Shown one piece after another: positions 321 to 28,032 of a stretch of 33,390 nucleotides of DNA; position 1 is the stretch's first letter, and each line of letters starts with the position of its first letter. The DNA is from Armatimonadota bacterium (GTDB taxonomy: Bacteria; Armatimonadota; UBA5829; JAUSEB01). The stretch covers positions 1-33,390 of the forward strand of contig JAUSGG010000110.1 of assembly GCA_030649165.1 (NCBI GenBank). The letters are read 5' to 3'. The notes beneath the pieces are model-generated. The model had not been told where the DNA came from. It searched no databases and saw only the letters and a program-made list of their open reading frames with translations. The position numbers and the translations under genes were made by a program.

Positions 321-436
321 TTGCGCTCGTCGTCCCCCGACAGTGAGGAGCGAAGAGAGTCGTACTCACCAAGCCTGAACTCTTACCAAAGGCCGGCCGA
401 CATCTGGTGGGAGTTCAGGTTTACGGGAAGAATATA

Positions 437-509
437 CTTCGGGACTCATTTTTCGTCCCGAAGCGTGTGGCATGTGTGCGTACTTCGGGACGAAATGCGT
501 GTCCCGAAG
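437..509. repeat. Inverted doublet of identical REP-like hairpins
   Basis: Two nine-base-pair hairpins share the same stem, CTTCGGGAC/GTCCCGAAG, at 437-445/455-463 and at 483-491/501-509. Each has a nine-base loop. The first loop read on the minus strand (GAAAAATGA) resembles the second loop read on the plus strand (GAAATGCGT), so the two units are inverted copies of one another. This is the arrangement of paired bacterial REP elements. No T-run follows either hairpin. Confidence 0.6.
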
Positions 510-553
510 CATAGGTAACATGGCCTCGACGTGCCACAAACCTCCGCTTCAAA

Positions 554-582
554 CCTCCCCCTAACCCCTAAGAGGAGGGGGG
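554..582. repeat. Palindromic repeat A, copy 2 (short)
   Basis: CCTCCCCCTAACCCCTAAG is followed by AGGAGGGGGG, which can pair back to the left arm. It is the first half of the composite repeat seen in full at 5434-5510, 27901-28003 and 32803-32880. It sits just beyond the stop codon of the minus-strand DUF1854 gene. Confidence 0.6.
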
Positions 583-592
583 ACGGGCGGCG

Positions 593-1138
593 CTAAACTA
601 CGCTCTCGATCCAGGCGGCGTCTTCGGGGGCTATCTCGTCCATAATGACCTCGAAGCGGTTGCCGTCGGTGTCGGTGATGAAATAACGCCCGGGTCCATT
701 CTCGGAAAGGGCTTCGTGGAGGTTCTTTGTGATGACCGACCGGACGCCGCGGTCGGTCTCTACCTGCCACGTCATGCCGCCGTATCGCTGCTTAGTGCTG
801 AGTATCTTCCGGACGCGGGGCACGAAGTATCTCCGCTCCAAGAGCTCGTAAAGAATGGCCTGCGTTCCGGCGTCGAACTCCTTGAGGTCTTTCACGATGC
901 CTATCTCATCTTCCCCATCGCGAAGCGAGATATAGTTGTCCGGATGCGACAGCGGGTAGGTCCGAAAGGCGTAGACCTGGATGTAGCTGATCTCGTTCGG
1001 CAGCGTCAGGCGAATGACGCCGCCCTGCTCGAATATCTCGAAATCGCCCGGACTGAGGTAATGAACGTTTGCTGCCTCGTCCGCCGCCTTGTTGCGCTCC
1101 GCCGCAGATTCGTCCGAGGTGAGTCTCTCTTCCGTCAT
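593..1138 (-). CDS. DUF1854 family protein, partner of ABC exporter
   Basis: This 181-residue soluble protein has no signal peptide or membrane segment. The segments EIFEQGGVIRLTLPNEISYI, the central SLRDGEDEIGIVKDLKEF and RYFVPRVRKI, and the C-terminal RYFITDTDGNRFEV are typical of DUF1854. That family is usually found next to, or fused with, an ABC exporter in clusters linked to cyanophycin metabolism. Its own role is unknown. The ATG overlaps the TGA of the upstream ABC gene by four bases (ATGA), so the two are probably translationally coupled and the proteins are likely partners. No cyanophycin synthetase or cyanophycinase lies in the window, so the cyanophycin link rests only on family knowledge. 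Confidence 0.85.
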   Translation of the reverse strand: MTEERLTSDESAAERNKAADEAANVHYLSPGDFEIFEQGGVIRLTLPNEISYIQVYAFRTYPLSHPDNYISLRDGEDEIGIVKDLKEFDAGTQAILYELLERRYFVPRVRKILSTKQRYGGMTWQVETDRGVRSVITKNLHEALSENGPGRYFITDTDGNRFEVIMDEIAPEDAAWIESVV

Positions 1139-3366
1139 CCGTCCACCGCCTTGACTTTCGACAGCTCCATCTGCATTTCGACAAGCTTGAAATAGGGTCC
1201 TTTCGTGTCCATAAGCTCATCATGCGTTCCCGATTCGCTGATCTTGCCGTGCTCCAGAACGACCAGACGGTCGGCGTTCTTCAGGGTCGAGAGCCTGTGA
1301 GCGATGGCCAGCGTGGTGCGGTTCTTGACGAGCCTAGCCAAAGCCTCCTGGATTTGCTTCTCTGTTATGGTATCGACGGAGCTTGTCGCTTCGTCGAGGA
1401 TCAGTATTTTCGGGTCGTGCAGAATGGCCCTGGCGATGGCGACTCTCTGCCGCTCGCCGGCGGAAAGCCCCTGTCCTCTCTCACCGACGCGGGTTTCGTA
1501 GCCATCGGGGAAATTCACAACGAAATCGTGAGCGTTCGCCGCCTTGGCAGCGCGGATTATCTCCTCGATGGTCGCTTCGGGCTTGGAATAGGCGATGTTC
1601 TCGGTGATCGTGCCTACAAACAGGTAAGGCTCCTGCGGGACCACCCCGATCTGCTGCCTCAGGTCGCTGAGCCTGATATCCTTGATATTGACCCCGTCTA
1701 TGAGCAGTTCGCCTTCCTGGGCAGTGTAGAACCGGCAGACCAGGTTGATCATGGTGGATTTGCCGGCGCCGGAATGGCCGACCAGACCGATCATCTCGCC
1801 CTGCGCGACGTCAAGGTTGATCTCGTGCAGGACGTGATTGTACCGGTCATAGCCGAAGCTGATGTCCCTGAATTCGAGGCGCCCCTTTATATCCGGCATC
1901 GTCACGGCCTTCCGCACATCGGGCTCCTCGGGAAGCGTATCCAGGATTTCGAAGACTCGTTCCGCGGCGGCAAATACCCTTCCGAGCCAGTCGCTCATAC
2001 GGACCACTATCTGCATCGGATAAACCGTCATCGCCGCGAAACCCAGCATCTGCATCAACTTGCCCAGCGTCATCTGGTGATCGAGCACCTGCATGCCGCC
2101 GAACCACCAGACAAGAAATGCGCCTGATCCCATTATGAAGGAATATGTGGGTATGAGCGTAGCCCACGTGGCTTCCGCTTCGGCGGCCGCAACCATTAGG
2201 CCGCGGCTTGTCCGCGCCAGGCGAGCCGCTTCTTGCCTCTCCTGGGCAAAGGCTTTGACGGTGCGCACGCCGGACAGAGAGTCGTTGAGCACCGCGCTGA
2301 ATCTGCTGCGGCGATGCCACAGTCTGCCGTAAACCCGCCTGAGTCCTCCCACTACTTTGAATGTGAAAAGTGTTATGATCGGCGCGGGAATGAGGGCCAC
2401 CAGGCCAAGCTTCCAGTTCAGATAAAGCATCATTGCCAAACCGCCGGCCAACTGAATGCTCTGGCTGATGAACAGGTAGATGTCGTCCGTGAGAAACCGC
2501 TGCAGCTCGGCGGTGTCCTGGCTGATCCTGGCCATTACGGCGCCGGTCTGCCTCTTATCAAAATAGGAAAGCGACAGCTTCTCTATGTGCTCGCACAGAT
2601 CCATCCTTATGGCGTGGGTGATCTTCGCGCCCATCCACGCTCCGATGCGCCCCTGGATGATAGAAAGACACGACGACACGGCCGACGCGCCCGCGAGGCC
2701 AAGCACAAGTAGTGTCAGCATTCGCGAAGCCCCAGGAGGCGGAGTTCCCTGGCCAACTCGCAGGACTCCGTCAACCAGCGGCCCAATCAGGTAGGGCGGC
2801 GTCAGTCCGAGTATCACAGCCAGAAGAAGAAGCGTGAGAACAATCGCTCCTGTGACGCGGTGCGGCCTGGTGTAAGCGAGGAGGCGGACAATAACCTGCC
2901 GCTTTTTCACGCAGTTCGGGCAAACGTTGGAGCCCTGCTCCAGCGGGAAATCGCACTTGGGACAGCGTCTTGGCAGCGCTTCGGGGTCGGGTTTCGGCTC
3001 TTCGCCCTTCGCCAGCGCCTCCAACTGCTTTGCGGCAGCGGCTAGTTTGCGCGCGTGGGCGTTGGAGTATCTTGCCAGGCAGACGCGATGACCGTCTACC
3101 TCGGCGGTCAGAAAGCCGTTTCCCACCTGACCTTCGCTGTTGATGTCCTTCAGCGACGACAACGGGTAATCGTACAGAACACTTACCTCGCCGTCGCGAC
3201 CGCCGAGACCCAGCACGCGCTGCCCGGTGACGAGCAGCCAGGACTCCGTCAGTTTCCCTTCGCTGTCAAGATCGAAGCTTACAGCAATCCTGGCGTCGCC
3301 GTCGCCATCCGACAGACGGCGCAGCTCGTCCTGTATGTCCTGTGGGATTTCTTCTTTAACCAGCAC
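1135..3366 (-). CDS. ABC exporter, fused membrane and ATPase domains, with zinc ribbon
   Basis: This 743-residue half-transporter would act as a homodimer in the inner membrane. Residues 1-120 form a soluble domain that I do not recognise. Residues 135-152 are a zinc ribbon (CPKC and CPNC). A six-helix exporter domain spans about 165-470 and the ATPase about 497-735. Walker A is GHSGAGKS (530-537), the Q-loop VPQEP (576-580), the signature LSAGE (634-638, a variant of LSGGQ), Walker B ILILDEA (654-660) and the H-loop His690, so the ATPase looks intact. The start is GTG, chosen because AAAGGTG lies seven bases upstream. The gene overlaps the DUF1854 gene by four bases. Exporters paired with DUF1854 are annotated as cyanophycin-associated; the substrate is unknown. 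Confidence 0.9.
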   Translation of the reverse strand: MLVKEEIPQDIQDELRRLSDGDGDARIAVSFDLDSEGKLTESWLLVTGQRVLGLGGRDGEVSVLYDYPLSSLKDINSEGQVGNGFLTAEVDGHRVCLARYSNAHARKLAAAAKQLEALAKGEEPKPDPEALPRRCPKCDFPLEQGSNVCPNCVKKRQVIVRLLAYTRPHRVTGAIVLTLLLLAVILGLTPPYLIGPLVDGVLRVGQGTPPPGASRMLTLLVLGLAGASAVSSCLSIIQGRIGAWMGAKITHAIRMDLCEHIEKLSLSYFDKRQTGAVMARISQDTAELQRFLTDDIYLFISQSIQLAGGLAMMLYLNWKLGLVALIPAPIITLFTFKVVGGLRRVYGRLWHRRSRFSAVLNDSLSGVRTVKAFAQERQEAARLARTSRGLMVAAAEAEATWATLIPTYSFIMGSGAFLVWWFGGMQVLDHQMTLGKLMQMLGFAAMTVYPMQIVVRMSDWLGRVFAAAERVFEILDTLPEEPDVRKAVTMPDIKGRLEFRDISFGYDRYNHVLHEINLDVAQGEMIGLVGHSGAGKSTMINLVCRFYTAQEGELLIDGVNIKDIRLSDLRQQIGVVPQEPYLFVGTITENIAYSKPEATIEEIIRAAKAANAHDFVVNFPDGYETRVGERGQGLSAGERQRVAIARAILHDPKILILDEATSSVDTITEKQIQEALARLVKNRTTLAIAHRLSTLKNADRLVVLEHGKISESGTHDELMDTKGPYFKLVEMQMELSKVKAVDG

Positions 3367-3720
3367 AGAGCCTCACCTTTCGCTTTCACACTACGGGGCA
3401 TCCCCGGCCCATGACCATGACTACCCAAATACGGGGGAAGTTCATATAGGCGGGCGTTGCGGACACACAAGACATGGTTCCGCGGCGGGCGTCCTGCATC
3501 CTGCCCTTATCCGAGAAGTGAACGTGCGCCGCTGAGGCTATATCATGTCTGGAAGCTCTCACCCTCACCCCAACCCGATTTAGAGATTAGAAGTTAGAAG
3601 TTGGAAGTTGGATGCCCGTTTCGACTCCTTCGACTCTCTACTCCATCACACAGGAATCCGCGGCGCGCCGGTAGAAGCGTAATACTGACTTGATTGATCC
3701 TTGAGCAGGAGACGAGAACA
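3367..3720. other. Intergenic region between divergent ABC and MFS genes
   Basis: These 354 bases separate the minus-strand ABC gene from the plus-strand transporter gene and should hold both promoters. I could not identify a convincing -35/-10 pair for either. The stretch carries a truncated piece of repeat A (CTCTCACCCTCACCCCAACC, about 3557-3576) and a tandem heptamer at 3587-3612. No gene is supported. Confidence 0.5.
3587..3612. repeat. Tandem heptamer repeat
   Basis: TTAGAAG occurs twice, followed by TTGGAAG and a partial TTGGA, giving about 3.7 units of seven bases. It directly follows the truncated repeat A segment and lies about 110 bases upstream of the transporter gene. No function is evident. 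Confidence 0.6.
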
Positions 3721-5682: not shown

Positions 5683-7557
5683 TCAGGCGGCCAGTTGGTT
5701 GGGATCTTCCGCCTTAAGAATCGTTACGAATGCTTTGACGACTTCCGGGTCGAACTGTTTACCGGTACAGCGCTCCAGTTCCGCCATCGCGGCCTCCGGC
5801 GTGAGTTTCGCCCTGTGGGGTCTGTCAGCGGTCATCGAGCAATACGCGTCAACCACCGCAATAACCCTGGCCACCAGAGGGATTTCTTCACCTGCCAGTC
5901 CGAATGGATATCCACTGCCGTCGTAATTCTCGTGGTGGTGCAGTATGCCGGGCAACATCGACTTCATCCCCGGAGACTTCTCTACTATGGCGTGGCCGAG
6001 CGTTGGGTGACTGGAGACGATTTCGCGGTCTTCCGGCGTCAGCGGCTCCGGTTTTACGAGGATCCCATCAGGGAGCGCTAGCTGTCCGATGTCTCTCAGC
6101 AAGCTCGCGAGACGAACGCTATCGCACTCTTCCGTGGGCATCCCCAACGCCTCCGCCAACTTGGCTGCGTGAGAAGCGACCGCCTTTCCGTGACCAGTCA
6201 TGAAGTGATGCTTGGCGTCGATCGCGCTTGCCAGGGCTTCGACGGTGCGGATGTCGGTGGCGCGCAGTAGCACGTGCACTCTGTAGGGATCTCCCGCGGG
6301 GTTGTCGCGCAACTGCTGCTCGAACCGGCACGTCTTGTTTCGACCGGTGGATTTCGCCCGATACAGCGCCATGTCGGCGGCCATGATCAGACCTTCGCGT
6401 TCGATGCTGTGCAGCGGATACTGGCCAACGCCAACGCTTATCGTCAGCGGAACGGTCTCCTGATCTTTGCCATAGAAGCAGTGCCGCTGAACCGCCAATC
6501 GGAGCCTCTCGCCGGCAGCGAACGCGTCTTCCACGTCGGTCTCGGGCAGAATGACCGAGAACTCCTCGCCGCCATACCGAGCGACTACGTCCATGTCTCT
6601 CACTTCGGCCTTCATGATCTTGGCCAACTCCCGAAGAGCCTTGTCCCCGCTCGGATGGCCGTGCCAGTCGTTGAAGTTCTTGAAATGGTCGATGTCGATC
6701 ATCAATATCGACAAGACGTGCTTATACCTTGCGGCCCTGCTGAGTTCGGCAGTCAGACGCTCCTGGAAATACCTGTGGTTGTAGAGGTCGGTTAGACTGT
6801 CCGTATTCGCGCGCTGAATCAGTTTCTCCTGACTTTCGCGCAGCGCGCTCATCATGCAGTTGAAAGCATGCGACAGCTCTCCCACCTCGTCGCCCGAATC
6901 CTCCGAAACCGTGCGGCTAAGGTCGCCATGCGCAACAGCCCTTGCGGTTTCTATGAGTTTCCTGAGCTGTCGGCTGATGCTGCGCGCTAAGAGTAGAGCG
7001 CCGACTATGCCGACCAGAAACGCAACGGCGAACACGACCAGAATATTCGTCTGCATCTCTTCGATGGCGCTGTTGACGCGGTTCAGAGAAAAGCCGACCG
7101 ATACCAGCCCTGATCTTCCGCTTGCCATACGAATGGGAAGAGTCGTTCGATAGACGTTGTTGACGACGTCCTCATAACCGGTCACGAAACCGGCTATTCT
7201 TCTGGCTTTCTGGACCAGGGGCGCGCGGGCGGGGTGATGCTCGGAACGTTGAGACCGCGCGAGCAGCGGCTTGCCCGTCTCGTCACTGACGACGATGTAC
7301 TCGATGTCGAGGGCGGTGTCGTTCAGATCATCGAGGATTCGTTGGCCGACCGAGGCGCCGTTGTGCGAAACAACGGGTTCGGACGCGACCGCGACAGCGC
7401 GGGCAAGAGCCTCGAAAGCCTGACGCTGCTGTTCTAAAAGGGCCGCCTTCTGCTGGCCCATCGCGTAGTGACCTACTCCGAGCAACACGGCGAATAGCAG
7501 ACCGATAGTCATGACACAGAGCTTGGCTTCCAAGCTCGTCCTGTGTTTCTTATGCAT
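5683..7557 (-). CDS. Membrane GGDEF + HD-GYP cyclic-di-GMP protein
   Basis: This 624-residue inner-membrane signalling protein has helix 1 at about 13-33, a periplasmic sensor domain (35-170), helix 2 at about 171-192, HAMP (190-245), GGDEF (about 252-412) and HD-GYP (about 440-612). The GGDEF active site is GGEEF (329-333). An inhibitory I-site RDMD (320-323) lies exactly five residues before it, so cyclic-di-GMP synthesis with product inhibition is expected. The HD-GYP domain keeps HHENYDGSGYP (541-551), but the HD histidine is Arg488 (RDIGQ instead of HDIGK), which removes a metal ligand. The ATG at 7557 is chosen over a TTG at 7575 because GGAG lies ten bases upstream. The protein may be a synthase with an impaired or sensory phosphodiesterase domain. 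Confidence 0.92.
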   Translation of the reverse strand: MHKKHRTSLEAKLCVMTIGLLFAVLLGVGHYAMGQQKAALLEQQRQAFEALARAVAVASEPVVSHNGASVGQRILDDLNDTALDIEYIVVSDETGKPLLARSQRSEHHPARAPLVQKARRIAGFVTGYEDVVNNVYRTTLPIRMASGRSGLVSVGFSLNRVNSAIEEMQTNILVVFAVAFLVGIVGALLLARSISRQLRKLIETARAVAHGDLSRTVSEDSGDEVGELSHAFNCMMSALRESQEKLIQRANTDSLTDLYNHRYFQERLTAELSRAARYKHVLSILMIDIDHFKNFNDWHGHPSGDKALRELAKIMKAEVRDMDVVARYGGEEFSVILPETDVEDAFAAGERLRLAVQRHCFYGKDQETVPLTISVGVGQYPLHSIEREGLIMAADMALYRAKSTGRNKTCRFEQQLRDNPAGDPYRVHVLLRATDIRTVEALASAIDAKHHFMTGHGKAVASHAAKLAEALGMPTEECDSVRLASLLRDIGQLALPDGILVKPEPLTPEDREIVSSHPTLGHAIVEKSPGMKSMLPGILHHHENYDGSGYPFGLAGEEIPLVARVIAVVDAYCSMTADRPHRAKLTPEAAMAELERCTGKQFDPEVVKAFVTILKAEDPNQLAA

Positions 7558-7573
7558 ATTAGATGTACTCCAC

Positions 7574-7632
7574 AAAAACGCCAGTTTATAACAGCGCTAA
7601 ATATCGCTATCGCCATATATATCGGCGTTTTT
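7574..7632. promoter_or_regulatory. Inverted repeat upstream of GGDEF gene
   Basis: AAAAACGCC (7574-7582) and GGCGTTTTT (7624-7632) are perfect nine-base inverted repeats flanking 41 AT-rich bases, immediately upstream of the GGDEF start. The region could carry the promoter and an operator, or fold as a leader hairpin. No confident -35/-10 pair was found. Confidence 0.35.
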
Positions 7633-7694
7633 CGGAGCGTGGATTAGGGGGCAAGAGTTCAGGAGTAGGAAGTACAGCCGGTGAATGTCATCTC

Positions 7695-7774
7695 CAGCGG
7701 AGCGCTAGCGGAGTCGAGAAATCTGCTTCCGTAAAGTGGTCGGAAAAAGCAGATTCCTCGTTCCTCGGAATGAC
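7695..7774. repeat. Dispersed repeat B, copy 2
   Basis: It shares with 47-137 the blocks GGAGTCGAGAAATCTGCTT and GGAAAAAGCAGATTCCTCG, followed by CGGAATGAC. AAATCTGCTT and AAGCAGATT are inverted. It lies between the end of the six-gene membrane operon and the start of the GGDEF gene. Confidence 0.65.
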
Positions 7775-7839
7775 GCTGCCCGGCAGGTACTCACCATTCC
7801 CGAACTGTTACTTGGTGAGACGGGGTATTGTGTGGACGG

Positions 7840-8307
7840 TCAGACGTGGGGTCCGCGGCCGAACAGTCCGAGGAACCAGTCGAAGACGAGGAAGTTGATA
7901 CGCCCGACCAGCAGCGACATGCGGGCGCCGACAGTGGCGCCGAACATTGCTCCGAAAGCAAACATCAGGAACCACCTGCCGAGGCCGGCGGCGATTCTGA
8001 TGCTGCCGCGCCTGTGATCTATGGAGAAGAAGAAGTACGACATACCGGTGAGGAGGACGATCATGAAGATGAGGTTGTTAACAACCTTCCAACCGTCGTA
8101 CAGGATCACCGGCAGGAGCAAGACCTGAATCGCGAGCGCGCCCCAAGTGGCGATTACAAACGCGTAGGCGGCTTTCAGATTGGCCTCGTGCCACTGACGG
8201 AATCGCTCAGGATCGACGCCGGGGTAATCCGCAGCGGTGCGACGTCTAAGCTTGGGAATTCTTATGAGAGTAATAATACCCGCTATCAGCAGGGCTATCT
8301 GGATCAT
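7840..8307 (-). CDS. Small four-helix membrane protein, last in DUF6754-type operon
   Basis: I do not recognise this 155-residue protein. It has about four hydrophobic helices (about 1-17, 47-72, 76-96 and 105-130) and a polar loop PKLRRRTAADYPGVDPERF after the first. The ATG follows the stop of the preceding gene by 28 bases, the widest gap in the operon, and the ribosome binding site is weak. Its position makes it the last member of a six-gene set of membrane proteins that is probably co-expressed as one complex. It has no catalytic motif and may be a structural or scaffolding subunit. Confidence 0.75.
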   Translation of the reverse strand: MIQIALLIAGIITLIRIPKLRRRTAADYPGVDPERFRQWHEANLKAAYAFVIATWGALAIQVLLLPVILYDGWKVVNNLIFMIVLLTGMSYFFFSIDHRRGSIRIAAGLGRWFLMFAFGAMFGATVGARMSLLVGRINFLVFDWFLGLFGRGPHV

Positions 8308-8335
8308 TGTTGTACCACAAGGCAGGTTGCGCCTC

Positions 8336-8878
8336 CTACCTGATGCCGGCCTCCCTCTTCAAACGAGCAGCCTTGCTGCCCAGAACAGCCGCCCAAACAA
8401 GCGGCAGAAGGAAGACGAGGAAACTGACCGCATAAACCACCGTCATTGCGGTTACGTCGGGTCTTGCGCTGCTCGGCGGCCCGCCTAGCGGTTTGAAGGA
8501 CGCGGCGATCTGGGGGACGTATTGTGTCGCGAACGCCTTGAACGTGAGGCCCGCCGTGAAGCCCATGAACGCGCCGAAGATTATCCGGCTGATCCAAGCA
8601 TACTTGCGGCTGTAGACGAAATAAAACATCATCCCAGCGAGGAACGCGAAAACCCAGTACCACTGACCCTCGGCGGTCATTCGTTTCCACCAGAGCGGAT
8701 GGAGGACCTGAGAGACCGTCATGAAGATTCCCTGCCCGGTCGCCAAGCCTATGAAGATGTGCTCGAACAACCGATAGAACGCGTTCTCCTTGTAGAGTAT
8801 GGAGAAAATCGCCAGCGTGGAAAGGGCGCCCAGCCAGACGATGATCTGAAGGCTGTATCGTTGCAGGAAGGCATCCAT
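8336..8878 (-). CDS. Five-helix membrane protein of DUF6754-type operon
   Basis: I do not recognise this 180-residue protein. Five hydrophobic stretches are visible: IIVWLGALSTLAIFSILY, HIFIGLATGQGIFMTVSQVL, a segment around WVFAFLAGMMFYF, RIIFGAFMGFTAGLTFKAF, and a C-terminal one around SFLVFLLPLVWAAVLG. A charged tail KAARLKREAGIR follows the last. The start lies two bases after the stop of the upstream gene, so translation is probably coupled. It is likely an integral subunit of the complex made by this operon. No enzyme motif is visible. Confidence 0.78.
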   Translation of the reverse strand: MDAFLQRYSLQIIVWLGALSTLAIFSILYKENAFYRLFEHIFIGLATGQGIFMTVSQVLHPLWWKRMTAEGQWYWVFAFLAGMMFYFVYSRKYAWISRIIFGAFMGFTAGLTFKAFATQYVPQIAASFKPLGGPPSSARPDVTAMTVVYAVSFLVFLLPLVWAAVLGSKAARLKREAGIR

Positions 8879-8880
8879 CG

Positions 8881-9723
8881 TCAGTCTCCACCTCCGTCCT
8901 CGGGCCTGCGCCGTCTGGACGCAACCAGGCCTACATTTCCGAGTATGATGAGGACTATTATGAGTATGAACGATCCCGACAGCGCCCCCGAACCCTTCTG
9001 GCCAAATCCCACATAGTTCAGCATCTGCTCGTACTGGCCCGCCCCCGGCAACCCCGGAAGCATACCCTTTATCTGTCCGGCGTCCAGAGGGTTATACGCC
9101 TCAGGCACCATAACCAGCGTGGGGGCAAAGACTATCGGGGTTTTGTACACCCCCTGGATCTGAGAAATCCATGCGTCAAGAGTGCCCGAAGGAGTGATGT
9201 CCGCGACGAGGCCGACATCGTGGATGGTCTTCACGCCGCGCATCATCGGCAGTTTTCTGACGTCTTCTCCGCGATAGTCCTTTTTTATGGTGGCCGGGAT
9301 ATCCTTTGCGAGGGCGGGGAGTATCTGGTAGAGATAGGCCGGGCGATAGCCCCAGTCGCACCAATCGACCCCGTAGGTCTTGCCCATTTCAGCGGACACC
9401 TTTTCGGCAATATCCTTGGCGAGCGTGGCCCCCTGCTGGTCCCACGGTAGAATGGCGAACCTGATGCCTCTCTTGAACAGATGTCGCATTATGGCTTCCG
9501 TCTGCGGTCCGTTCTCAGCCATTGTGCTGGAACTCCAGACGATCGAGACTATTGCGATCTTGTCGTGCGGAATCGCTTCGACCGCATCGTAAACGCCCTT
9601 TACAGCGTGTGTTGTCGACAGTGGCTGCTTTACAGGCCACTTGAGCATTACGACGATGGTGAGGCACAGCAACCCGTACATTATGCGCCTGTCTATATTA
9701 AGAAGAGCCCGCAGGATGATCAT
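8881..9723 (-). CDS. Membrane-anchored protein with extracytoplasmic alpha/beta domain
   Basis: This 280-residue protein has an N-terminal helix (about 14-28, MYGLLCLTIVVML) and a C-terminal helix (about 252-270, FILIIVLIILGNVGLVAS) followed by basic residues RRRRP. Between them is a domain of about 220 residues that alternates strands and helices (KIAIVSIVWSSSTMAENGPQ, GIRFAILPWDQQGATLAKDI, TPIVFAPTLVMVPEAY). The topology suggests a domain outside the membrane held at both ends. The ATG overlaps the upstream TGA by four bases. The family is unknown to me. Members of DUF6754 operons often have such a partner, but I cannot name its role. Confidence 0.78.
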   Translation of the reverse strand: MIILRALLNIDRRIMYGLLCLTIVVMLKWPVKQPLSTTHAVKGVYDAVEAIPHDKIAIVSIVWSSSTMAENGPQTEAIMRHLFKRGIRFAILPWDQQGATLAKDIAEKVSAEMGKTYGVDWCDWGYRPAYLYQILPALAKDIPATIKKDYRGEDVRKLPMMRGVKTIHDVGLVADITPSGTLDAWISQIQGVYKTPIVFAPTLVMVPEAYNPLDAGQIKGMLPGLPGAGQYEQMLNYVGFGQKGSGALSGSFILIIVLIILGNVGLVASRRRRPEDGGGD

Positions 9724-10556
9724 TGCTTATCGAAGAAGCTCCCTTTTTCGAGACTGAGCCAAATGCGAAGAGCCATAGCCAGACCGCCGACGGCGATGCC
9801 GAAGGCAATCGCTCTTTGCGCAGCCGCATTCGGTCCGGTAAGTATCCACTGAGTGATTCGCTCTAACCGGAGATTGGACAGCGCCCCTGTCTCCGGGAGC
9901 CAATGCGTGAGATAAATGCCGATTGGAACCATTCCCAGCATCACGAGGAAAGCGGCGAGCATCATCAGGGTGGCTTCTCCCGATCTGATGCGGAATGCGC
10001 GATACGACGCCGAGACGATATAGAAGGCCACCAGGGAGAACATAGTCGCGCCAAGCGGGGCGAGCATGCCGTTGAAAAGGATTTGATATACGGCAGTCCA
10101 GGATTGGCTGCCTTTTTGGCCGGATTGCTCCTGAAGATACGGAATCAGGCCTGCCGCCATTATCGCGACCATGGCGATGAAGAACGCCAGGCTGTTATGC
10201 CAACCGGGGCGGACAGCGCGGATCGCCTTGGCGTGAATTGCCACAAGGTTGACGACGCCGAGCAGCAGCGTGAAGGATCCTACGACCATGATAACGTCGC
10301 CCAACGGCTGCACGGCTGGACTGAGGAAGTTCTCGACGCCGAAAATCGTGCCGCTCCAGAAAAACTCTGCTATGTAGAAGAGACCGGCCAGGAAGGTCAC
10401 CGCCATAACGATGAGCTTCCTGTACCTGCCCGGCGTGGCCCGCAACAGAAGGAAGATTGCCACCCCGAGCGCGAGTCCTCCCGCGATCAGCAGCCAGAGG
10501 GCCAGACCGTGGCGGGGAGAAGCGAGCCATTTACCGAGGTAAAGGATGAAATCCAT
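9720..10556 (-). CDS. Polytopic membrane protein, about seven helices
   Basis: I do not recognise this 278-residue protein. Hydrophobic helices are near 18-38, 48-67, 85-107, 122-142, 162-185, 195-220 and 246-268. It has no transporter signature or conserved charged pair that I can name. The start lies five bases after the stop of the DUF6754-like gene, and its end overlaps the next gene by four bases, so it is firmly inside the operon. It is probably the main membrane-embedded subunit of the complex. Transport or anchoring are both possible. Confidence 0.78.
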   Translation of the reverse strand: MDFILYLGKWLASPRHGLALWLLIAGGLALGVAIFLLLRATPGRYRKLIVMAVTFLAGLFYIAEFFWSGTIFGVENFLSPAVQPLGDVIMVVGSFTLLLGVVNLVAIHAKAIRAVRPGWHNSLAFFIAMVAIMAAGLIPYLQEQSGQKGSQSWTAVYQILFNGMLAPLGATMFSLVAFYIVSASYRAFRIRSGEATLMMLAAFLVMLGMVPIGIYLTHWLPETGALSNLRLERITQWILTGPNAAAQRAIAFGIAVGGLAMALRIWLSLEKGSFFDKQ

Positions 10557-10561
10557 AACGT

Positions 10562-11344
10562 CTATAACCCCAGGAGTCCCTTCAGGACACCGGATTGCAC
10601 GCCGAATACGGTCGCAATAGCCGTTCCGGCAATCACGAGCGCAATGATAATGCCTTTGGCAACGTCCTGTCCGACAAGGCTGCCCAACAGCGTCGGCTCG
10701 CGTGACAGATATGCGCTTGCCGCGAAGAACTCGTCGCCTATGATGGTATAGTCACACGCCGCCAGAAAGAATGGTATCTGCGTCGTGGAAGGCGTTCCGG
10801 CGACCTGTATGGCTCCGACCTGGTGCCCGGTTTCCGCGAGAATGAGCGATTCCGCGAAGAAACTGCCGAAATAGCACGCCGACGCCACTTTCTCCCGGTT
10901 GAGAATGCCGACAACGCCCGACGCAAAGGCGAACTGGTTATCGGAAAGGTAGCGAACGTCCTCGGGATCGTAGTGGTCAGCGGCGTCTTCGGCGGTGTAA
11001 GCCTCTCGCGATACTTCCTCAGCCAACGTGAAAACTATGGAATCGGCGGAGGGCACTATGACCCTGGAGCCGTACCTTGCAGCAATCCGCGTGACGTGGC
11101 TCAGAATCGCAAGCGCTTGCAGGGAAACTATGTCCAGACTGCCGATGCCGGGAACAAACAACACCGGTCGGCCCATTTCCGTTGCGCGGCCCACGGCCTC
11201 ATCCAAAGCGGACAGACCCGGAATTCTCCGTATGAAGAGACTCCGGCCTCGACCGGACAGCCATCTGTTGTAGAATATGCCGATAAGCACTGAGAGGCTC
11301 AGCGCAAAGGTCAATATCGTGATTTGCCAGGTTGGATGCTCCAC
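10562..11344 (-). CDS. DUF6754-like membrane protein
   Basis: This 260-residue protein has an N-terminal helix (about 8-26), a soluble domain (about 40-225) and a C-terminal helix (about 230-250). The segments GRPVLFVPGIGSLDIVSLQA, VGILNREKVASACYFGSFF and GHQVGAIQVAGTPSTTQIPF fit my memory of the DUF6754 family, whose function is not known. GRPVLFVPGIGSLD looks like a strand-loop-helix of a Rossmann-like fold, but there is no clear nucleotide-binding motif. The start is GTG, six bases after the previous stop. The soluble domain and the short first gene share a VLF(V/L)...(S/P)LxxVxxQAL pattern, which hints that the two interact or are related. Confidence 0.75.
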   Translation of the reverse strand: MEHPTWQITILTFALSLSVLIGIFYNRWLSGRGRSLFIRRIPGLSALDEAVGRATEMGRPVLFVPGIGSLDIVSLQALAILSHVTRIAARYGSRVIVPSADSIVFTLAEEVSREAYTAEDAADHYDPEDVRYLSDNQFAFASGVVGILNREKVASACYFGSFFAESLILAETGHQVGAIQVAGTPSTTQIPFFLAACDYTIIGDEFFAASAYLSREPTLLGSLVGQDVAKGIIIALVIAGTAIATVFGVQSGVLKGLLGL

Positions 11345-11350
11345 CGATAA

Positions 11351-11674
11351 CTACTCTGCCTTGTTTTCCGGCTGGACGGACGCCGGTTTATCCCGCTCGG
11401 CGACCAGTTCCTCGATTCGCCGAATCAGCCTTTCAATACTGTCTCTCGATCGCAACAGCCCGCTGTACCGGCTTACCTTGTCTATCCCGAACAACGAGCC
11501 CAGCAGCGGAGCGCTCACGACCAACGCCTGACTTGCCACAAAAGAAAGCGGCTTGTGAGTCTCCAGAAACAACACAGCCGGAGTCTCCAGTCGCCTCCGC
11601 ACAATATCCGCGGCTATAGACTCAATAATACTATCGATCTCTTCCGGCGGAAGCTCCTGCTCGAAATCAATCAT
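11351..11674 (-). CDS. Small soluble protein, first gene of DUF6754-type operon
   Basis: This protein has 107 residues from the ATG at 11674. An in-frame ATG at 11752 would add 26 residues rich in Cys and Arg that look non-coding, and neither start has a strong ribosome binding site. The body has an acidic N-terminal helix (EELPPEEIDSI-like), a hydrophobic core VLFLETHKPLSFVASQALVV and a charged C-terminal helix SIERLIRRIEELVAERDKPA. The core pattern recalls part of the neighbouring DUF6754-like protein. The gene is separated from that gene by six bases. No function can be assigned. A promoter lies about 170 bases upstream (11849-11877). Confidence 0.65.
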   Translation of the reverse strand: MIDFEQELPPEEIDSIIESIAADIVRRRLETPAVLFLETHKPLSFVASQALVVSAPLLGSLFGIDKVSRYSGLLRSRDSIERLIRRIEELVAERDKPASVQPENKAE

Positions 11675-14512: not shown

Positions 14513-16906
14513 TTACCGCTTCTCCACCTTCCCTACCGTCACTACCGGAAACGTCTTGTTAACGAAGTCGTTGATGTAGTCGCGTTCGAAGTAGCGAATC
14601 CCGCTGCCGCCGTGGCCCTGGCCGGTGATGATGTCCAGATCGGCGTCGCCGTTGAAGTCCTTGGCGTCCGCGCCGGAGACAAGCATACCGGTGGTCGGCT
14701 GCACCAGGACAACGCCGGTTGGGTCCGCGAACTCAGGCTTCTCGGCGCTTCCCATGTTCTTGAAGAACCGGACCTGGTGTTCGAACTCGCTGATGATCAG
14801 ATCCTTCTTGCCGTCGCCGTCCCAATCCACGAATGAGCCCGCGCCGGGGCGCTGCCAGTAGGGTGTGCCGCCCTTGTCATTGGGACCGAAGGCAATCCGC
14901 TGGCCGGGCGCGAGTTCGGGATTTGCGTCCGTGCCGACATTCTTGAAAAAGACGAAGTAGTCGCTGTTGCCGATGAAGTCTTTCCTGCCGTCGTTGTCCC
15001 AGTCGCACACGAGTATGCCGCCGCCGATGCCTCCGAACGACTCGCCTTTCAGTTCCAATGGAACGCCCCGAGTGAGTCTCGGATTCTTATCGGTCCCCGC
15101 ATTAAGGTACAGCAGCAGTCCGGCGTTGCTGTCCAATGCAAGCAGATCCTTCTTGCCGTCATTGTCCCAGTCGGTCACCTCCGGCTTGACGTAGCCAAGG
15201 TAGCTGACGTCGTGGAAACCGCGGAGGACCACGTCTCGGCCTCGCACCGCCTCCAAGACAGTCCCAGGGGCAGTTGTCGTGCTCGCAACCTTCAGCTTCT
15301 CGCCCGATGCGAAGACGGGGAACAGGTTGCTGGTCGTGTTGCGGAAGTACCAGACGAAGCCGTCGGTGTCGCCGACGATAAGGTCAAGCTTTCCGTCGCT
15401 GTCCCAGTCAACAGCGCGCGGGCGGTTCTGGCGGACGGCATCGCAGGGCTGGAAACGCATGGTGTAGGGCGCGCCTTCGCCGGCCGGGACCGGCTTGAAC
15501 TTCGGTCGCTTCTTCGTGCCGACATTCTTGTACAGGCAGCCGTAGAAACGCGGCTGATTGTCGAACTGGGTCCTCTCCCAATAGCGCCCGGCGACGATGT
15601 CGAGCAGGCCATCGGCGTCGAAGTCAGCGACCTTCACGCCGGAGTGGGCATCGAGAAACGCGAAGTTGATCAACATGCGGCCTATCGTGAACACCGGGTT
15701 GGTCCTGGAGCCGACGTTCTCGTACCAATAGATGTGCCCGTGCTGCGAGCCCGTGAAGAGGTCGAGGTCGCCGTCGGCGTCGATATCCGCGCAGTCGAAT
15801 CGACCGGTAGAAACCATCAGATCGACGCCGTTCGCCTTGACGCGGACGCCGTCGGCGAACTTCATGTTGCCGATGTCCTTCTCAGGCCCGACGTTCTTGT
15901 GGAAGAAGAGCAGGCCATCTTTGGTGAGAAGCACGTCGCACTTGCCGTCGCCGTCCAGATCGATGAACGTCACTCCGGCGAACGACCCCTCCTGCCCTAT
16001 CGGCTTGCCGGTCTCGGTCACCAGCGCGCCGCGGTCGGTAAACGTCAGCGCCCCCCCGGGTTTGGTCGTATTCTCGTATCTCCACGTGTTGCCGTGATAC
16101 ACGTCCCTGCTGTAGCCGACCGCGAAGCTGGGGAAGAAGTCCATATCGCCGTCGCCGTCCCAGTCGAGGAACTTGACGGTCACCCAACCGCGGCCCTGCT
16201 TGTCCTGAGGGAGCGACCACGGCTTGCCGTCGTTGGTGAGCTTGCCGCGCTCTATGTAAAGGTTACGTCCCGATCCTTCGGTAGCAGAGCGCAGCGGCGC
16301 TGCCGAAGCGCCACGGGGGCTCACGTTCTCGTAGCAGTAAACGTAGGTCTCGACGCCGCCTTTGAAGAGGTCGAGGTCGCCGTCGCCGTCGAAATCGACG
16401 AAATCGTCAAAGTGGTTGCAGCCGATCTCGCGGGGTTTGTATTCCTCTCGGAACCAGTCGCCGTCGCCGACGATGCCGGGGTAGCGGTTGGGCTTGCCGA
16501 GGCCCGATTGCAGGGTGTCAAAATAGACGGCGTACTGTGTATGCTTGTCGTCGGGCATCACGAAGCTGAGTGTCACCTGATCGATGGGGAAGTACTTCTG
16601 GACCCGCCACGGCAGGAGATATTGCTCGTAACCCGTGCGGGAAGCGTCGAAGACTGCCGGCTTGCCGGAGGAGTCATAAGCGATAACCTCGATCGTGTCC
16701 GCGTCGAACGTTCCGGCGGCTCCCGTGTCTTTCAGCGCGGCCTGTAAGTCGATGTCGACGCTCGCCGGAGAGTTCTTGCGTTCGGCCCCCTTGGGATCGA
16801 CAGTCAGCAACACGCGATAGTGGTTCGGTGAGTCCCAGGAAGGCGCCTGCGCCCAAACGGGCAATATCGCAGCGATACACAGAATCAGGATCAGTATGGT
16901 CCTCAT
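14513..16906 (-). CDS. P4-B: secreted FG-GAP/VCBS protein, short form
   Basis: This 797-residue secreted protein has a signal peptide (MRTILILILCIAAILPVWAQ, about 1-21). An N-terminal beta-rich domain (about 25-165) includes YRVLLTV, NSPASVDIDL and YLLPWRVQKYF. FG-GAP/VCBS repeats run from about 166 to 775 with ten calcium-type loops such as DFDGDGDLD (171-179) and DWDGDGKKD. It ends at GQGHGGSGIRYFERDY plus a short tail and lacks the OB-like C-terminal cassette of its three paralogues. Residues of about 197-215 are an insertion, encoded by a palindromic repeat, that the paralogues do not have. The ATG overlaps the P4-A stop by four bases. FG-GAP propellers usually bind ligands or proteins; the ligand here is unknown. 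Confidence 0.9.
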   Translation of the reverse strand: MRTILILILCIAAILPVWAQAPSWDSPNHYRVLLTVDPKGAERKNSPASVDIDLQAALKDTGAAGTFDADTIEVIAYDSSGKPAVFDASRTGYEQYLLPWRVQKYFPIDQVTLSFVMPDDKHTQYAVYFDTLQSGLGKPNRYPGIVGDGDWFREEYKPREIGCNHFDDFVDFDGDGDLDLFKGGVETYVYCYENVSPRGASAAPLRSATEGSGRNLYIERGKLTNDGKPWSLPQDKQGRGWVTVKFLDWDGDGDMDFFPSFAVGYSRDVYHGNTWRYENTTKPGGALTFTDRGALVTETGKPIGQEGSFAGVTFIDLDGDGKCDVLLTKDGLLFFHKNVGPEKDIGNMKFADGVRVKANGVDLMVSTGRFDCADIDADGDLDLFTGSQHGHIYWYENVGSRTNPVFTIGRMLINFAFLDAHSGVKVADFDADGLLDIVAGRYWERTQFDNQPRFYGCLYKNVGTKKRPKFKPVPAGEGAPYTMRFQPCDAVRQNRPRAVDWDSDGKLDLIVGDTDGFVWYFRNTTSNLFPVFASGEKLKVASTTTAPGTVLEAVRGRDVVLRGFHDVSYLGYVKPEVTDWDNDGKKDLLALDSNAGLLLYLNAGTDKNPRLTRGVPLELKGESFGGIGGGILVCDWDNDGRKDFIGNSDYFVFFKNVGTDANPELAPGQRIAFGPNDKGGTPYWQRPGAGSFVDWDGDGKKDLIISEFEHQVRFFKNMGSAEKPEFADPTGVVLVQPTTGMLVSGADAKDFNGDADLDIITGQGHGGSGIRYFERDYINDFVNKTFPVVTVGKVEKR
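16276..16308. repeat. Palindrome inside P4-B coding sequence
   Basis: CTTCGGTAGC (16276-16285) and GCTGCCGAAG (16299-16308) form a ten-base inverted repeat with one wobble pair. It sits in the part of P4-B that has no counterpart in the other three FG-GAP proteins (about 16262-16316). Translated on the minus strand it gives an Ala/Ser/Gly-rich loop (RGASAAPLRSATEGSGRN). Confidence 0.55.
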
Positions 16907-16921
16907 GGGTTCACCACCTCC
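16903..16921 (-). promoter_or_regulatory. Coupled ribosome binding site and ATGA overlap, P4
   Basis: GGAGGT (16921-16916) lies nine bases before the ATG of P4-B and is made of the Glu-Val codons near the end of P4-A. The stop of A and start of B share ATGA (16906-16903). This implies that B is translated by coupling with A. Confidence 0.85.
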
Positions 16922-18036
16922 GTGTAATTGGCGAAACGCTTGACCTCGTTCGGCCCATCCGATGCCTGCGAAGTAACGGTGTTCTCCTTGGAAAAGAACA
17001 CCTGGCAGGAGCCATCAGGCAGGACAATGATGCTGTCCACGAATATCTCTTCGTTGCCGGTGACGGGCGCTGGCGGGTGGAGAGTGACCTCGCCGATGAG
17101 CTTTGACCATTTCCCAACTCCGTCGTCGCTTACAGCCCGGCATACATGGTAGTAGGGCGGTTCCTTGCTCTTGCCCTGGTACCACATTTCATACTTCCCG
17201 TTCCGCTTGACGACGACAGGGTTCCGCGCGCCCGTCGTGTCAAACCAGCGCGGTGGAATCGCGCTCAAACCCGAGAAAAGCCAGAACTGCCCAACCGCGA
17301 CGCCCTTTTTGGTCCATTTGAGGCCGTCAGGCGACGTTGCGTTGAGTATCTGCCAGACCTTGCCGTCGAAGCCCTCGTACCACATTCGGTACGTCGAGCC
17401 TTCTTTGATGACGAACGGCTGGCCGGCGCCTTTGCAGTCGGGTTCGCCCGGAGCGCCGGCGCCTACCGTGGCTCTCGATCCGGCGAATCCCGAGAATTTG
17501 TTCCAGCGCCTCCCGTCCGGCGAAGTCGCGTAGCCAATGCGGAAGTTGATCTTGTTCGCCCGTCCGTCCGTGGAGCCTGGGGCCAACTCGGTTTCGCCGC
17601 CCCAGCCGGTGTACCACATCTTGTAGAGCGGACCGTCTTTGATGACACAGGGGCCGATCGCGTAGACGGAGTCGAAGACGGCTGCCGCGTCGTCGGGGTT
17701 CAGAATCTCGCCCTGCATCAGCTTTCGGGCGTAGAGCACGGGCTGCCGGCTGTTGTCGACGGGCGACCAGGAGACGGCGTCCTTCGAGACCCTCATCCCG
17801 GTTATCCGCTGGCCCCACATGCTCTCGTTCGTCTCCGCGCGCGTGGAGGCGGAGTAGAACATCTTGTAGTCCTTCGCCGCCTCGTCGTAGAACACAAACG
17901 GGTAGTAGTGATTTCCACTGTCCCACTCGCCGGATTGATACGTAACGCTCGCAGCCTTGTCCCCGGGCGGGGCGGCAGTCGCGCTTGACCACCACGCAAG
18001 GACGAGACAAGTCAACAGCCACCATAGGATTCTCAT
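16903..18036 (-). CDS. P4-A: secreted five-bladed propeller, short form
   Basis: This 377-residue protein has a signal peptide (MRILWWLLTCLVLAWWSSATA), and the propeller begins directly after it. Five repeated strand motifs are visible: YPFVFYDEAAKDYKMFYSAS, GPCVIKDGPLYKMWYTGWGG, GQPFVIKEGSTYRMWYEGFD, RNPVVVKRNGKYEMWYQG and VDSIIVLPDGSCQVFFSKEN. The pattern resembles the GH43/GH32/GH130-type five-bladed glycosidase fold. I could not confirm a catalytic acid pair, so it may be a binding protein. It lacks the N-terminal jelly roll of the other three A proteins. The ATG at 18036 is chosen because AAGGAGA lies just before it; an upstream TTG would place that site inside the gene. It ends in YTEVVNP. 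Confidence 0.88.
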   Translation of the reverse strand: MRILWWLLTCLVLAWWSSATAAPPGDKAASVTYQSGEWDSGNHYYPFVFYDEAAKDYKMFYSASTRAETNESMWGQRITGMRVSKDAVSWSPVDNSRQPVLYARKLMQGEILNPDDAAAVFDSVYAIGPCVIKDGPLYKMWYTGWGGETELAPGSTDGRANKINFRIGYATSPDGRRWNKFSGFAGSRATVGAGAPGEPDCKGAGQPFVIKEGSTYRMWYEGFDGKVWQILNATSPDGLKWTKKGVAVGQFWLFSGLSAIPPRWFDTTGARNPVVVKRNGKYEMWYQGKSKEPPYYHVCRAVSDDGVGKWSKLIGEVTLHPPAPVTGNEEIFVDSIIVLPDGSCQVFFSKENTVTSQASDGPNEVKRFANYTEVVNP

Positions 18037-18110
18037 ATTCGCGTCTCCTTGCAAGTTTAGTTACGAATGGAGGGAAATCCGTTCCACTCGCTCGGGCGCA
18101 TACAGTAGCA

Positions 18111-18145
18111 GGAGACGCAGCCCCGCGGCGCGGGGCAACGTCTCC
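18111..18145. promoter_or_regulatory. Strong hairpin between cassettes P3 and P4
   Basis: GGAGACG (18111-18117) pairs with CGTCTCC (18139-18145), and inside it GCCCCGC (18120-18126) pairs with GCGGGGC (18130-18136) around a three-base loop, with a two-by-two internal loop. That makes 14 base pairs, nearly all GC. There is no T-run. It may protect or process the message between P3-B and P4-A, act as an attenuator, or be a dispersed palindrome. Confidence 0.6.
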
Positions 18146-18179
18146 CACTACTTCGATTCCAAGGGCATCCCAGCCGGGT

Positions 18180-21100
18180 CTACAGTTTGATCACGTCACC
18201 CATACCCGGCCGTGTTAGAACCTTCGATTGCCGCAATCCGTTGACCAGTTCCATAGAAGAGATTCCTCTAACCGACAGGAAATATCCTTCCGCAACGCTC
18301 GTATCGTTCACATCGACCTTCACGCCGTCGGCGAGCCGGTACGAGCCGTCCGTGTGCCTGTAAGAGCTCTGGACTCCACCTCCATCGTCTATGAACATAT
18401 ACCGTGCGCCGTAATAATCGCCGGTAGAGGATAAGTTCAGGCTGCACTTGCCGGAAACACGGATAAGAAGACCGATATTGTTCAGGCCCGAGCCCCCCTC
18501 AACCCCATACTGTCCCGCGCCTGTGGACGGAGAACCGAGGTCGCCCCCTCCGACAGTCCTGGAGCTGACCATGAGCTCGTTCACGGAGCCGGAACCGTTT
18601 GCGGTTATCGTACTCGCCAGGAGGTATCTCTCGCCGTCGGAGTTCGCGTACATGTTACCGACCACGTCAACCATTTGCCCGATGGTAACTCCGTGGTTCG
18701 TCTTCTGGACCCTCATCCCGCTGCTTCTGTCAGTCTGCTCCACATAGAAGTAGCCTGTATAGGCAGCGGTGACCACTCCCCGCGGGACTGTGATTGAGCC
18801 GCCTCCGCCGAAGGTCTTCGCCGCGGCAATGTCGTAGCCCTGGGTCGAGGCGCCTATGGTGACGATCGGATACGCGCCGCCGTTGACGTAGTCATTGATC
18901 TGGTCGCGCTCGTAAAACCTGAGCCCGCTTCCCCCGTGGCCCTGGCCGGTCACGATGTCCAAATCACCGTCGCCGTTCCAATCGACGGCGTCGGCGCCGG
19001 ACATCATCTGAACGGTCCAGGGCGCGACGATGTAGACGCCGCTCTGCGACGATTCGAACTTCGGGTTCGATGTCGTGCCGGTGTTCCTATAGAACCGGGC
19101 GTTATGTTCGAATTCGCACCCGACGAAATCCTTCTTGCCGTCGCCGTCCCAATCCACGAATGATCCCAGATTTGGCCTGGTATAGTCTATGATTGTTGAA
19201 CTTCCGCCCGGATTCTTGGACGTCAGCCAAGACGGGAATCCAAGAGTCGGCAGGCCGAATGCGTCAGGACCGTTGTTCTTGTAAAGTAGAAAGCCCCTGT
19301 CGCTGCCGGGGTCGGCGTTTATGTGCGGCCAATCGTAGTATACGCTATCATAGGCGCTGGGATCGACACGTCCTACCATGCCGAAAACCAGGTCGAGGTC
19401 ACCGTCATTGTCCCAATCAGATACGAGAACGCTTGACCGCGGAGTGCCGTCGATCTCGTAACCGTTGGCCGTCACCCTGAATCCCGGAGCAAGCACGGGA
19501 TTGGCGTCCGTATTGGTGTTGAGGAACGCATAAAGCCATCCTCTGCCGTCGGCGACCAGGAGGTCCTTCTTCTGATCTCCGTTCCAGTCGCAGACCTCGA
19601 CCCTGGCGTATCCCGCGGCGCGGCATTCCTTTTCCTCGCCGTACATCCGTATGTACTCGCCCCCGGCCTCAATCCTCTGGCCCGGCTCGAATATCGGAAA
19701 CAGTTGGCTGGTGGCGTTACGGAAGTACCAGACGAAGCCGTCGGTGTCGCCGACGATCAAGTCTTTCCTGCCGTCGTTGTTCCAGTCGACCGCCCTCAGA
19801 CCGTTCTGGCGGATTGCGTCGCAAATCTGGAACCGTTCGGTATACGGCGAGCCGGTGTAGGCGTCTCTGGCCTCGAACCTGGGCGCTGTCGGAGTTCCGA
19901 TATTCTTGAAGAGCCGCCCGTAGCTTCTAGGGTCCTGGCCCCACTGCGAACGCTCCCAGTACCGTCCCGCGACAAAATCAAGCAGCCCGTCGCCGTCCCA
20001 ATCGGCGACCTTCAGATTCGTCCTCGCGTCCATAAACTCGAAGTGGGCCAGCACGCGCCCTTCGCGAAACGCAGGATTGTTCCGCGGCCCTACGTTTTTG
20101 AAGAAGAATACGCGACCTTCCTCCGTTCCCACGAGAATGTCGGGGAGCTGATCGCCATCGATATCCGTGTAATCGCAGCAGGCGGACAGCATCTGGATAT
20201 CGGCGCCGTTCGCCTGCGCGTATTGCTTGAACCTCAACTGTGGATTGGCATTTGTGCCGATGTTCTCGTGAATCTCTATCAGCGCGTCCTGGCCCGCGAT
20301 GAGGTCGCGGTCGCCGTCTCCATCCCAGTCCGCGAACGTAACGAGGCAGGTCCCGCTGTGCCCCACGCCGACGGAGTTAGAGCCGTAAAGAGTCATCACC
20401 TGACCGACAAGACTGAACGTAAGCTGACCGCCGGGGATCGTAGTATTCCGGTACCAGATAAGCTGACTCGCATAGTCGCCGGTGGGGGCATGGACGAAGA
20501 GATCCTGGTCGCCATCCATATCCCAGTCGCAGAACCTGATCGATCCCCAAGCCCTGTTGTTGCCGTCGTAGTACAAGACCAGCGGTTGGCCGCCCGTGGT
20601 GAGCTTGCCCCTGTCCTCGAACCGATTGCCGCCCACATTCTCGTAGCAATAGATATAAGGCTCCGTGCCGCTCTTGAAGAGATCGAGGTCGCCGTCGCCG
20701 TCGAAATCGCAGAAGGTGTCGTACGCGCAGGCGTTTATCTCGCGCCGCTTATAGCCTTCGGTGAACCAGTCGCCGTCACCGACCAATCCGGGATAGCGGT
20801 CCGGCTTGCCTAGTCTTGACTCTTTCGTGTCGAAGTATATGGCGTATTGCGTAGTGGCGTGATTCGGCATTACGAAACAGAGTTTGATTCGGTTCACGCC
20901 GTAGTATCTCTCGATGCGCCACGGCAGCAGGTATCGTTCGTAGCCGGGGCGGGAGGCGTCAAAGGTTTTCGGCTGGCTCAGGCTGTCGTAGCCGACCACC
21001 TCTATCGTGCTCGGATCGAAGGTCCCGGTTCCACCCTGCGCTTGCATGGCCTGGACCAGGTCGATCTCCACCGAAGCCGGCGAGTGGTTGCCGTTTACGC

Positions 21101-21257: not shown

Positions 21258-21272
21258 GGGTTTACGACCTCC
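21254..21272 (-). promoter_or_regulatory. Coupled ribosome binding site and ATGA overlap, P3
   Basis: GGAGGT (21272-21267) within the EVVNP codons of P3-A lies nine bases before the ATG of P3-B. Stop and start share ATGA (21257-21254). This site decides the B start: a longer upstream reading of the same frame has no comparable signal and no signal peptide. Confidence 0.85.
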
Positions 21273-23002: not shown

Positions 23003-23136
23003 TATCTTGTTGACCTTCCCGGCTGTTCCGCACGGGGGGCATTTACATATTTGGCGGCTTGACGCCGCTTTAGCAGTTGGCGACTGCCGGCGCGAACTCC
23101 AAGGCCCTACAGTGGTCTTCCGCACAATCCGGGCCA

Positions 23137-23172
23137 AACCCCACCCCAACCCTCCCCTGAATGGAGAGGGAG
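23137..23172. repeat. Palindromic repeat A, copy 5
   Basis: ACCCCACCCCAACCCTCCCC is followed by TGAATGGAGAGGGAGCT. It has the opposite orientation to the copies at 27901 and 32803. It occupies the spacer between the stop of P2-B and the start of P3-A (23003-23176), where no other feature is visible. Confidence 0.65.
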
Positions 23173-23176
23173 CTGA

Positions 23177-27897: not shown

Positions 27898-27900
27898 GAC

Positions 27901-28003: not shown

Positions 28004-28032
28004 CTTGGTAATTGGACTTCATCCGATCCCTG

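Follow-up and report, generated by a model that had tools for sequence, protein, structure and literature searches.

In the platforms of type IV pili and type II secretion systems, an actin-like protein, PilM or GspL, is found in the cytosol together with inner-membrane partners. Proteins of the MutL/GlmL family and related ASKHA proteins, such as the diol dehydratase reactivases and the hydroxyacyl-CoA dehydratase activators, serve enzymes, and GlmL is regarded as a chaperone that assembles or reactivates glutamate mutase in an ATP-dependent manner. Here we describe an operon of membrane proteins from an Armatimonadota bacterium that belongs with an unlinked MutL-family ASKHA protein and an unlinked barrel-sandwich protein. 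The operon is located at positions 7840-11674 of a 33,390-nucleotide stretch of DNA (contig JAUSGG010000110.1 of assembly GCA_030649165.1, referred to below as the window), which is contig C80 of a 5.48 Mb genome that is 99% complete (G000). We propose that it encodes the membrane core of one conserved ATPase-linked envelope system, in which a substrate would be moved, loaded or assembled with the help of the soluble MutL-like and barrel partners; we regard the case for this proposal as evenly balanced.

A preliminary description of the window had reported six tightly packed minus-strand genes, with gaps of 6, 5, -4, 2 and 28 bases, and the list of open reading frames (ORFs) agreed with it in coordinates, strand and spacing. 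In order of transcription, the features of the operon are as follows.

11351-11674, minus strand: g1, an ORF of 107 residues, probably cytosolic
10562-11344, minus strand: g2, 260 residues, DUF6754 (PF20539), a Rossmann-like domain between two transmembrane (TM) segments
9720-10556, minus strand: g3, 278 residues, a polytopic membrane protein with about seven TM segments by hydropathy
8881-9723, minus strand: g4, 280 residues, a Rossmann-like domain between two TM segments (AlphaFold2 model, alignment and synteny)
8336-8878, minus strand: g5, 180 residues, of which 1-131 are the N-terminal half of the fifth ancestral gene, followed by the tail of an inserted gene, X
about 8113-8485, minus strand: the insertion splitting gene five, consisting of the X tail, a stop, the 28-bp gap and the X head, that is, a circularly permuted X
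7840-8307, minus strand: g6, 155 residues, of which 1-65 are the head of X and 73-144 the C-terminal half of the fifth ancestral gene

PF20539 was detected in 129 of 151 genomes spread over the Armatimonadota (about 85%) and in none of 14 control genomes. Gene order was compared across 121 loci: the one in the window, 40 from Armatimonadota genomes and 80 from a named collection, with some genomes counted twice. In these loci g2 is accompanied by g3 (116 loci), g4 (115), g5 (111) and g1 (91), and the order g2-g3-g4-g5 is kept in more than 100 of them, across about ten phyla. The labels among the 80 named loci, which are mostly metagenome-assembled genomes (MAGs) with the phylum taken from the record label, so that single assignments may be wrong, include Latescibacterota, Coatesbacteria, Edwardsbacteria, Eisenbacteria, Fermentibacteria/Aegiribacteria, Zixiibacteriota, WOR-3/Stahlbacteria, Neomarinimicrobiota, Cloacimonadota and Planctomycetota. 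Loci labelled Bacillota (L082) and Actinomycetota (L084) also carry the operon, and the L084 label at least is probably wrong. The whole g2-g5 block was found as a tandem duplicate in six loci (L095, L096, L097, L099, L107 and L114); DUF6754 alone is tandemly duplicated in L033 and L039. With g1-g5 syntenic in about 120 loci, the operon behaves as one conserved envelope unit, which supports in part the earlier suggestion of a stable envelope complex. The gene-neighbourhood comparison of DUF6754 across phyla, which had been recommended as a check, confirmed the operon order and enlarged the gene set, adding MutL and barrel genes in several phyla.

Extended operons, with genes for a MutL/GlmL-family protein and a barrel protein beside g1-g5, were found in Fermentibacteria, Eisenbacteria, Marinimicrobia, one Planctomycetota MAG and some Armatimonadota, and g1 is also part of the extended operon in other phyla. 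The MutL/GlmL-family protein of these operons has about 600 residues (PF13941, E = 4e-126 in L045), and the barrel protein, of about 370 residues, contains a barrel-sandwich region that is biotin/lipoyl-like and RnfC-like. The genome of the window carries both genes elsewhere.

C61:81524-83308: the MutL-family gene, a single full-length copy on another contig
C145:14890-16008: the barrel gene, a single full-length copy on another contig

The MutL-like protein of this genome is a member of PF13941, matching the model from end to end (439.5 bits, model positions 1-450 of 450), and continues for about 115 residues beyond it at the C terminus. The ASKHA nucleotide motifs DCGSTTTK, DxGGATTD and GSGG are conserved among 10 MutL-like sequences. 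The barrel protein stands out for its extreme conservation, about 80 columns being invariant among 12 sequences from several phyla; it scored below the RnfC_N and Biotin_lipoyl_2 cut-offs and above that of plain Biotin_lipoyl by 3 bits. The preliminary description had characterized the proteins as only membrane-linked and free of any catalytic signature, a view that no longer holds, since the system also includes an ASKHA protein of the MutL family, whose nucleotide-binding motifs are invariant, and a barrel-sandwich protein that is soluble.

Among the 151 Armatimonadota genomes, the MutL gene and the barrel gene were each found in 135 and DUF6754 in 129, and all three were absent together from 14. 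MutL and barrel occurred without DUF6754 in eight genomes, most of them incomplete or highly fragmented, while of the genomes with DUF6754 two lacked MutL and two lacked the barrel gene, G121 being counted in both. Fisher's exact tests, with 2x2 counts read off tables by hand and kinship between the 151 genomes ignored, gave p = 1.7e-12 for DUF6754 versus either partner and p = 1.4e-18 for MutL versus barrel; restricted to genomes at least 90% complete, the tests gave p = 2.3e-9 and 2.6e-10. Several concerted losses are seen: the shared absences are in several families (f9, f11, f13, f17, f22 and f26), and most of these families include other genomes that carry the system; g4 is also absent from those genomes at least 90% complete that lack DUF6754, MutL and barrel. 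This joint presence and absence of unlinked loci is the strongest evidence obtained here that the operon, MutL and barrel are parts of a single functional system, a conclusion that is well supported. The proposed gene set comprises g1-g5, MutL and barrel, with an optional g0. The latter is a small protein with two TM segments and a weak bPH_6-like region, encoded directly upstream of g1 in 50 loci (e.g. L072:3672-4160 and L033:5686-6126); it was considered as a component and is optional at most, since the genome of the window yielded no convincing relative.

Two other possibilities were examined and set aside. Outer-membrane essentiality was considered using Omp85 (PF01103), which all 36 genomes examined carry, among them 13 without the system; because Omp85 is kept where the system is absent, the system is not needed for the outer membrane. 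A mobile origin was not adopted, as no DUF6754 match was found in plasmids, phages or IMG/VR viral contigs. The operon DNA had no match in E. coli genomes.

The DUF6754-like assignment of g2 made earlier was confirmed by profile search (319.4 bits, cut-off 27; E = 1.7e-95, model positions 12-249 of 257), and alignment of 77 sequences revealed 23 invariant columns. AlphaFold2 models, for which alignments of the proteins of the window and of related loci were the input, gave a single Rossmann-like alpha/beta domain for both g2 (predicted local distance difference test score, pLDDT, 93.4) and g4 (pLDDT 95.2, predicted template modelling score 0.90). Each domain is flanked by an N-terminal and a C-terminal helix marked as transmembrane by hydropathy. 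Flanking charges suggest that the g2 domain is cytoplasmic and that of g4 extracytoplasmic, with the N terminus and the Arg-rich C terminus of g4 inside. An outside N terminus of g2 agrees with the g2 relatives in L044 and L045, which have a signal-peptide-like N terminus and an added N-terminal fn3 domain. The hydropathy scan gives two TM segments for g4, read earlier as doubly anchored, and its extracytoplasmic placement is a prediction from flanking charges. In L147, labelled Cloacimonadota, two DUF6754 ORFs (353-3388 and 5781-8714) are about 1000 residues each, which suggests a very large extra N-terminal region.

The best fold-search match of g2 was Sir2 (Z 12.4, root mean square deviation 3.4 over 143 residues) and that of g4 was MT0777 (Z 10.1, 3.5 over 139 residues). 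The search returned generic Rossmann relatives only, with no Foldseek match at E < 0.001, so no enzyme family is claimed for either protein. Homology between g2 and g4 is likewise not claimed, as their profile comparison gave E = 0.0028 but a probability of 11%. In profile searches against the PDB, the fn3 domain was the only hit for g2, and no convincing hit was obtained with g1, g3, g4, MutL or barrel.

A YRAFRxRSxEATL motif is conserved in g3, whose seven TM segments by hydropathy scan match the number previously given (distant relatives have about six), and an LFLExxKPLSF-like motif is conserved in g1. No relative of g1 was found in Pfam or PDB profile searches, scanning all members of the g3 and g4 families gave no consistent family, and comparison of g3 with g5 detected no homology. 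Above cut-off, no Pfam, NCBIfam or PADLOC family was found for g1, g3, g4, g5 or g6.

The last two ORFs had been counted as separate genes with five and four helices, whereas hydropathy gives four for g5 and five for g6, and the two are halves of one gene, so that the operon has five ancestral genes rather than six. Gene five is a single ORF in all relatives examined, including the sister genus, and its intact product has at least 4-5 TM segments by hydropathy. In G151, from the sister genus and the sole other genome sampled from the family of the window, it is intact and 217 residues long; residues 4-131 of g5 are 67% identical to its residues 6-133, and residues 73-144 of g6 are 69% identical to its residues 142-213. 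The intervening X is an unrelated membrane gene of 117 residues with three TM segments, of which an intact copy is located at G000:C17:4120-4473 (L161). Compared with this copy, the X tail in g5 shows 64% identity over 47 codons and X residues 1-65 in g6 show 68%. The ratio of nonsynonymous to synonymous change per site (pN/pS) against G151 was 0.26-0.28 for the native halves and 0.28-0.29 for the intact g3 and g4, values that give no age for the split, as synonymous sites have reached saturation and g5 and g6 had in part diverged from G151 before it took place.

Because both halves are open, in frame with parts of X and under purifying selection like that on g3 and g4, the split is likely a natural fission still in use. 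A dying or mis-assembled 3' end, with g5 and g6 representing a pseudogene or an assembly chimera, would fit the single ORF seen in every relative, but is decidedly unlikely given the open reading frames of the halves and their pN/pS. Moreover, the insert shares just 64-68% identity with the other X copy, so a simple assembly join of the latter does not account for it, and a search of the genome turned up no further copy of gene five. The fission of one gene through the insertion of another that is small and circularly permuted is a rare-looking case. The split gene is also a natural experiment on where a membrane protein may tolerate a break.

The genes around the operon point, as a hint, to the envelope, yet they differ by lineage. 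In Fermentibacteria (L113, L118 and L142), a TonB-dependent receptor gene (PF00593) is located downstream of g5 with ExbB-, ExbD- and TonB-like genes, the latter recognized by eye. In Marinimicrobia (L127, L141 and L151), CdsA (PF01148) and a diacylglycerol-kinase-like gene, again recognized by eye, lie upstream of MutL. A bactofilin gene (PF04519) is next to the operon in two loci. In the window, the operon is followed on the same strand by a gene for a protein with sCache, HAMP, GGDEF and HD domains (5683-7575). On the other side, the stretch 14513-31227 holds three large FG-GAP-repeat proteins (14513-16906, 18180-21359 and 23177-26197) alternating with other secreted-looking proteins, and a fourth ORF of similar size (28033-31227) lies in this tandem family.

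We infer the membrane topology, ATP hydrolysis, a physical complex, and the direction and substrate of its action as follows. The MutL-like ASKHA protein would bind and hydrolyse ATP in the cytosol, as its family motifs suggest, and could act on the cytoplasmic Rossmann-like domain of g2 via the barrel protein, perhaps with g1 as well, so that ATP binding and hydrolysis would drive or gate the membrane core. From there g3 and g5, both polytopic, would relay the change through the inner membrane to g4 and its extracytoplasmic Rossmann-like domain. As the outcome, a substrate would be moved, loaded or assembled, with g2 and g4 each contacting the substrate or a partner on its side of the membrane. 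A more specific version, which we offer tentatively and hold to be doubtful, is that this is a new class of envelope machine, widespread in Armatimonadota and in phyla like those of the Fibrobacterota-Chlorobiota-Bacteroidota (FCB) group, in which a MutL-family ASKHA ATPase and a barrel adaptor would drive an inner-membrane complex of five subunits that exposes substrate-binding domains on either side of the membrane.

Several considerations weigh against an ATPase-linked envelope system. The evidence for it consists of gene content, synteny, concerted presence and loss, and confident domain models, and the putative ATPase activity is read from family motifs. Rossmann-like folds are common and say little on function, and neighbouring genes that vary by phylum fix no pathway. 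The presence and absence data are phylogenetically non-independent, and a near-universal system offers few loss events. Mismatches also exist, such as the eight genomes in which MutL and barrel occur and DUF6754 does not, and assembly gaps are the probable cause of some of them.

The main rival is a membrane-bound enzyme or cofactor complex without transport, in which the MutL-like protein would be an ATP-dependent assembly or reactivation chaperone like GlmL and the domains of g2 and g4 would be catalytic or cofactor-binding. The service of related ASKHA proteins to enzymes, the frequent binding of nucleotides or cofactors by Rossmann-like domains and the many invariant polar residues of g2 are all in keeping with it. 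We nevertheless consider it rather unlikely, as no cofactor-binding or enzyme family was recognized in the five proteins, most of the conserved mass is membrane protein, and the soluble domains are predicted on both sides. Those two-sided domains of the models, together with the outside fn3 modules in other phyla, would also suit an envelope sensor or scaffold, in which g4 would sense the outside and g2 with MutL and barrel would respond inside, linking the state of the envelope to cell-shape or surface machinery. The adjoining bactofilin and GGDEF/HD genes speak for such a role; the differing neighbours between phyla, and a unit with no kinase, response regulator or known signalling domain, make it improbable. 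Tight packing is by itself common in bacteria, and neither g1 nor the upstream g0 is always beside g2, as might be seen in an ordinary co-transcribed housekeeping cluster whose products form no complex. This last explanation is very improbable, since it is opposed by the g2-g3-g4-g5 order in more than 100 of 121 loci across phyla, by the whole-block tandem duplications and by the co-loss with the unlinked MutL and barrel genes.

A unit retained by about 85% of the sampled Armatimonadota species (129 of 151), and by members of some ten further phyla, points to a core process of the envelope that model bacteria lack. The preliminary description could match the operon to no known machine and had named profile links between several of the proteins and a known complex or transporter family as what would overturn it; these were looked for in Pfam, NCBIfam and PADLOC and none was found, and profile, PDB and defence-library searches likewise link the operon to no known complex. 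The family to which g2 belongs as a full-length member, DUF6754, is itself without an assigned function, and a search of the open-access literature, with subscription papers and preprints outside its scope, found no mention of DUF6754, PF20539 or PF13941. No ABC ATPase was found by profile search among g1-g6, MutL and barrel, and the same eight proteins matched no PADLOC anti-phage family at E 0.01. Residues 70-116 of the barrel protein weakly resemble the N-terminal barrel-sandwich hybrid domains of RnfC and NqrA (PF13375, E = 6e-5; PF05896, E = 0.06), but its scores are below the cut-offs for Rnf/Nqr membership (PF13375, 23.4 versus 25.6 bits; the rnfC model TIGR01945, 15.2 versus 245.95). 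With the type IV pilus and type II secretion platforms the likeness would be one of working alone, an actin-fold-family cytosolic protein acting with inner-membrane partners; unlike in those platforms, the ASKHA protein is of the MutL family, and no PilM/GspL, PilN/GspM, pilus or secretion family was found in g1-g6, MutL or barrel. The MutL-like partner resembles GlmL, the methylaspartate mutase accessory protein, in being a full-length member of PF13941 with the ASKHA motifs, but it scores below the GlmL cut-offs (NF040745/TIGR01319; 241.7 versus 475 for GlmL itself and 185.9 versus 204.05 for the subfamily), and it differs from GlmL in that several phyla encode it together with the membrane operon. 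Judged by these comparisons, the system belongs to no described kind, and it gives part of the MutL/GlmL family, whose current annotation is that of a glutamate-mutase chaperone, a different, membrane-associated context.

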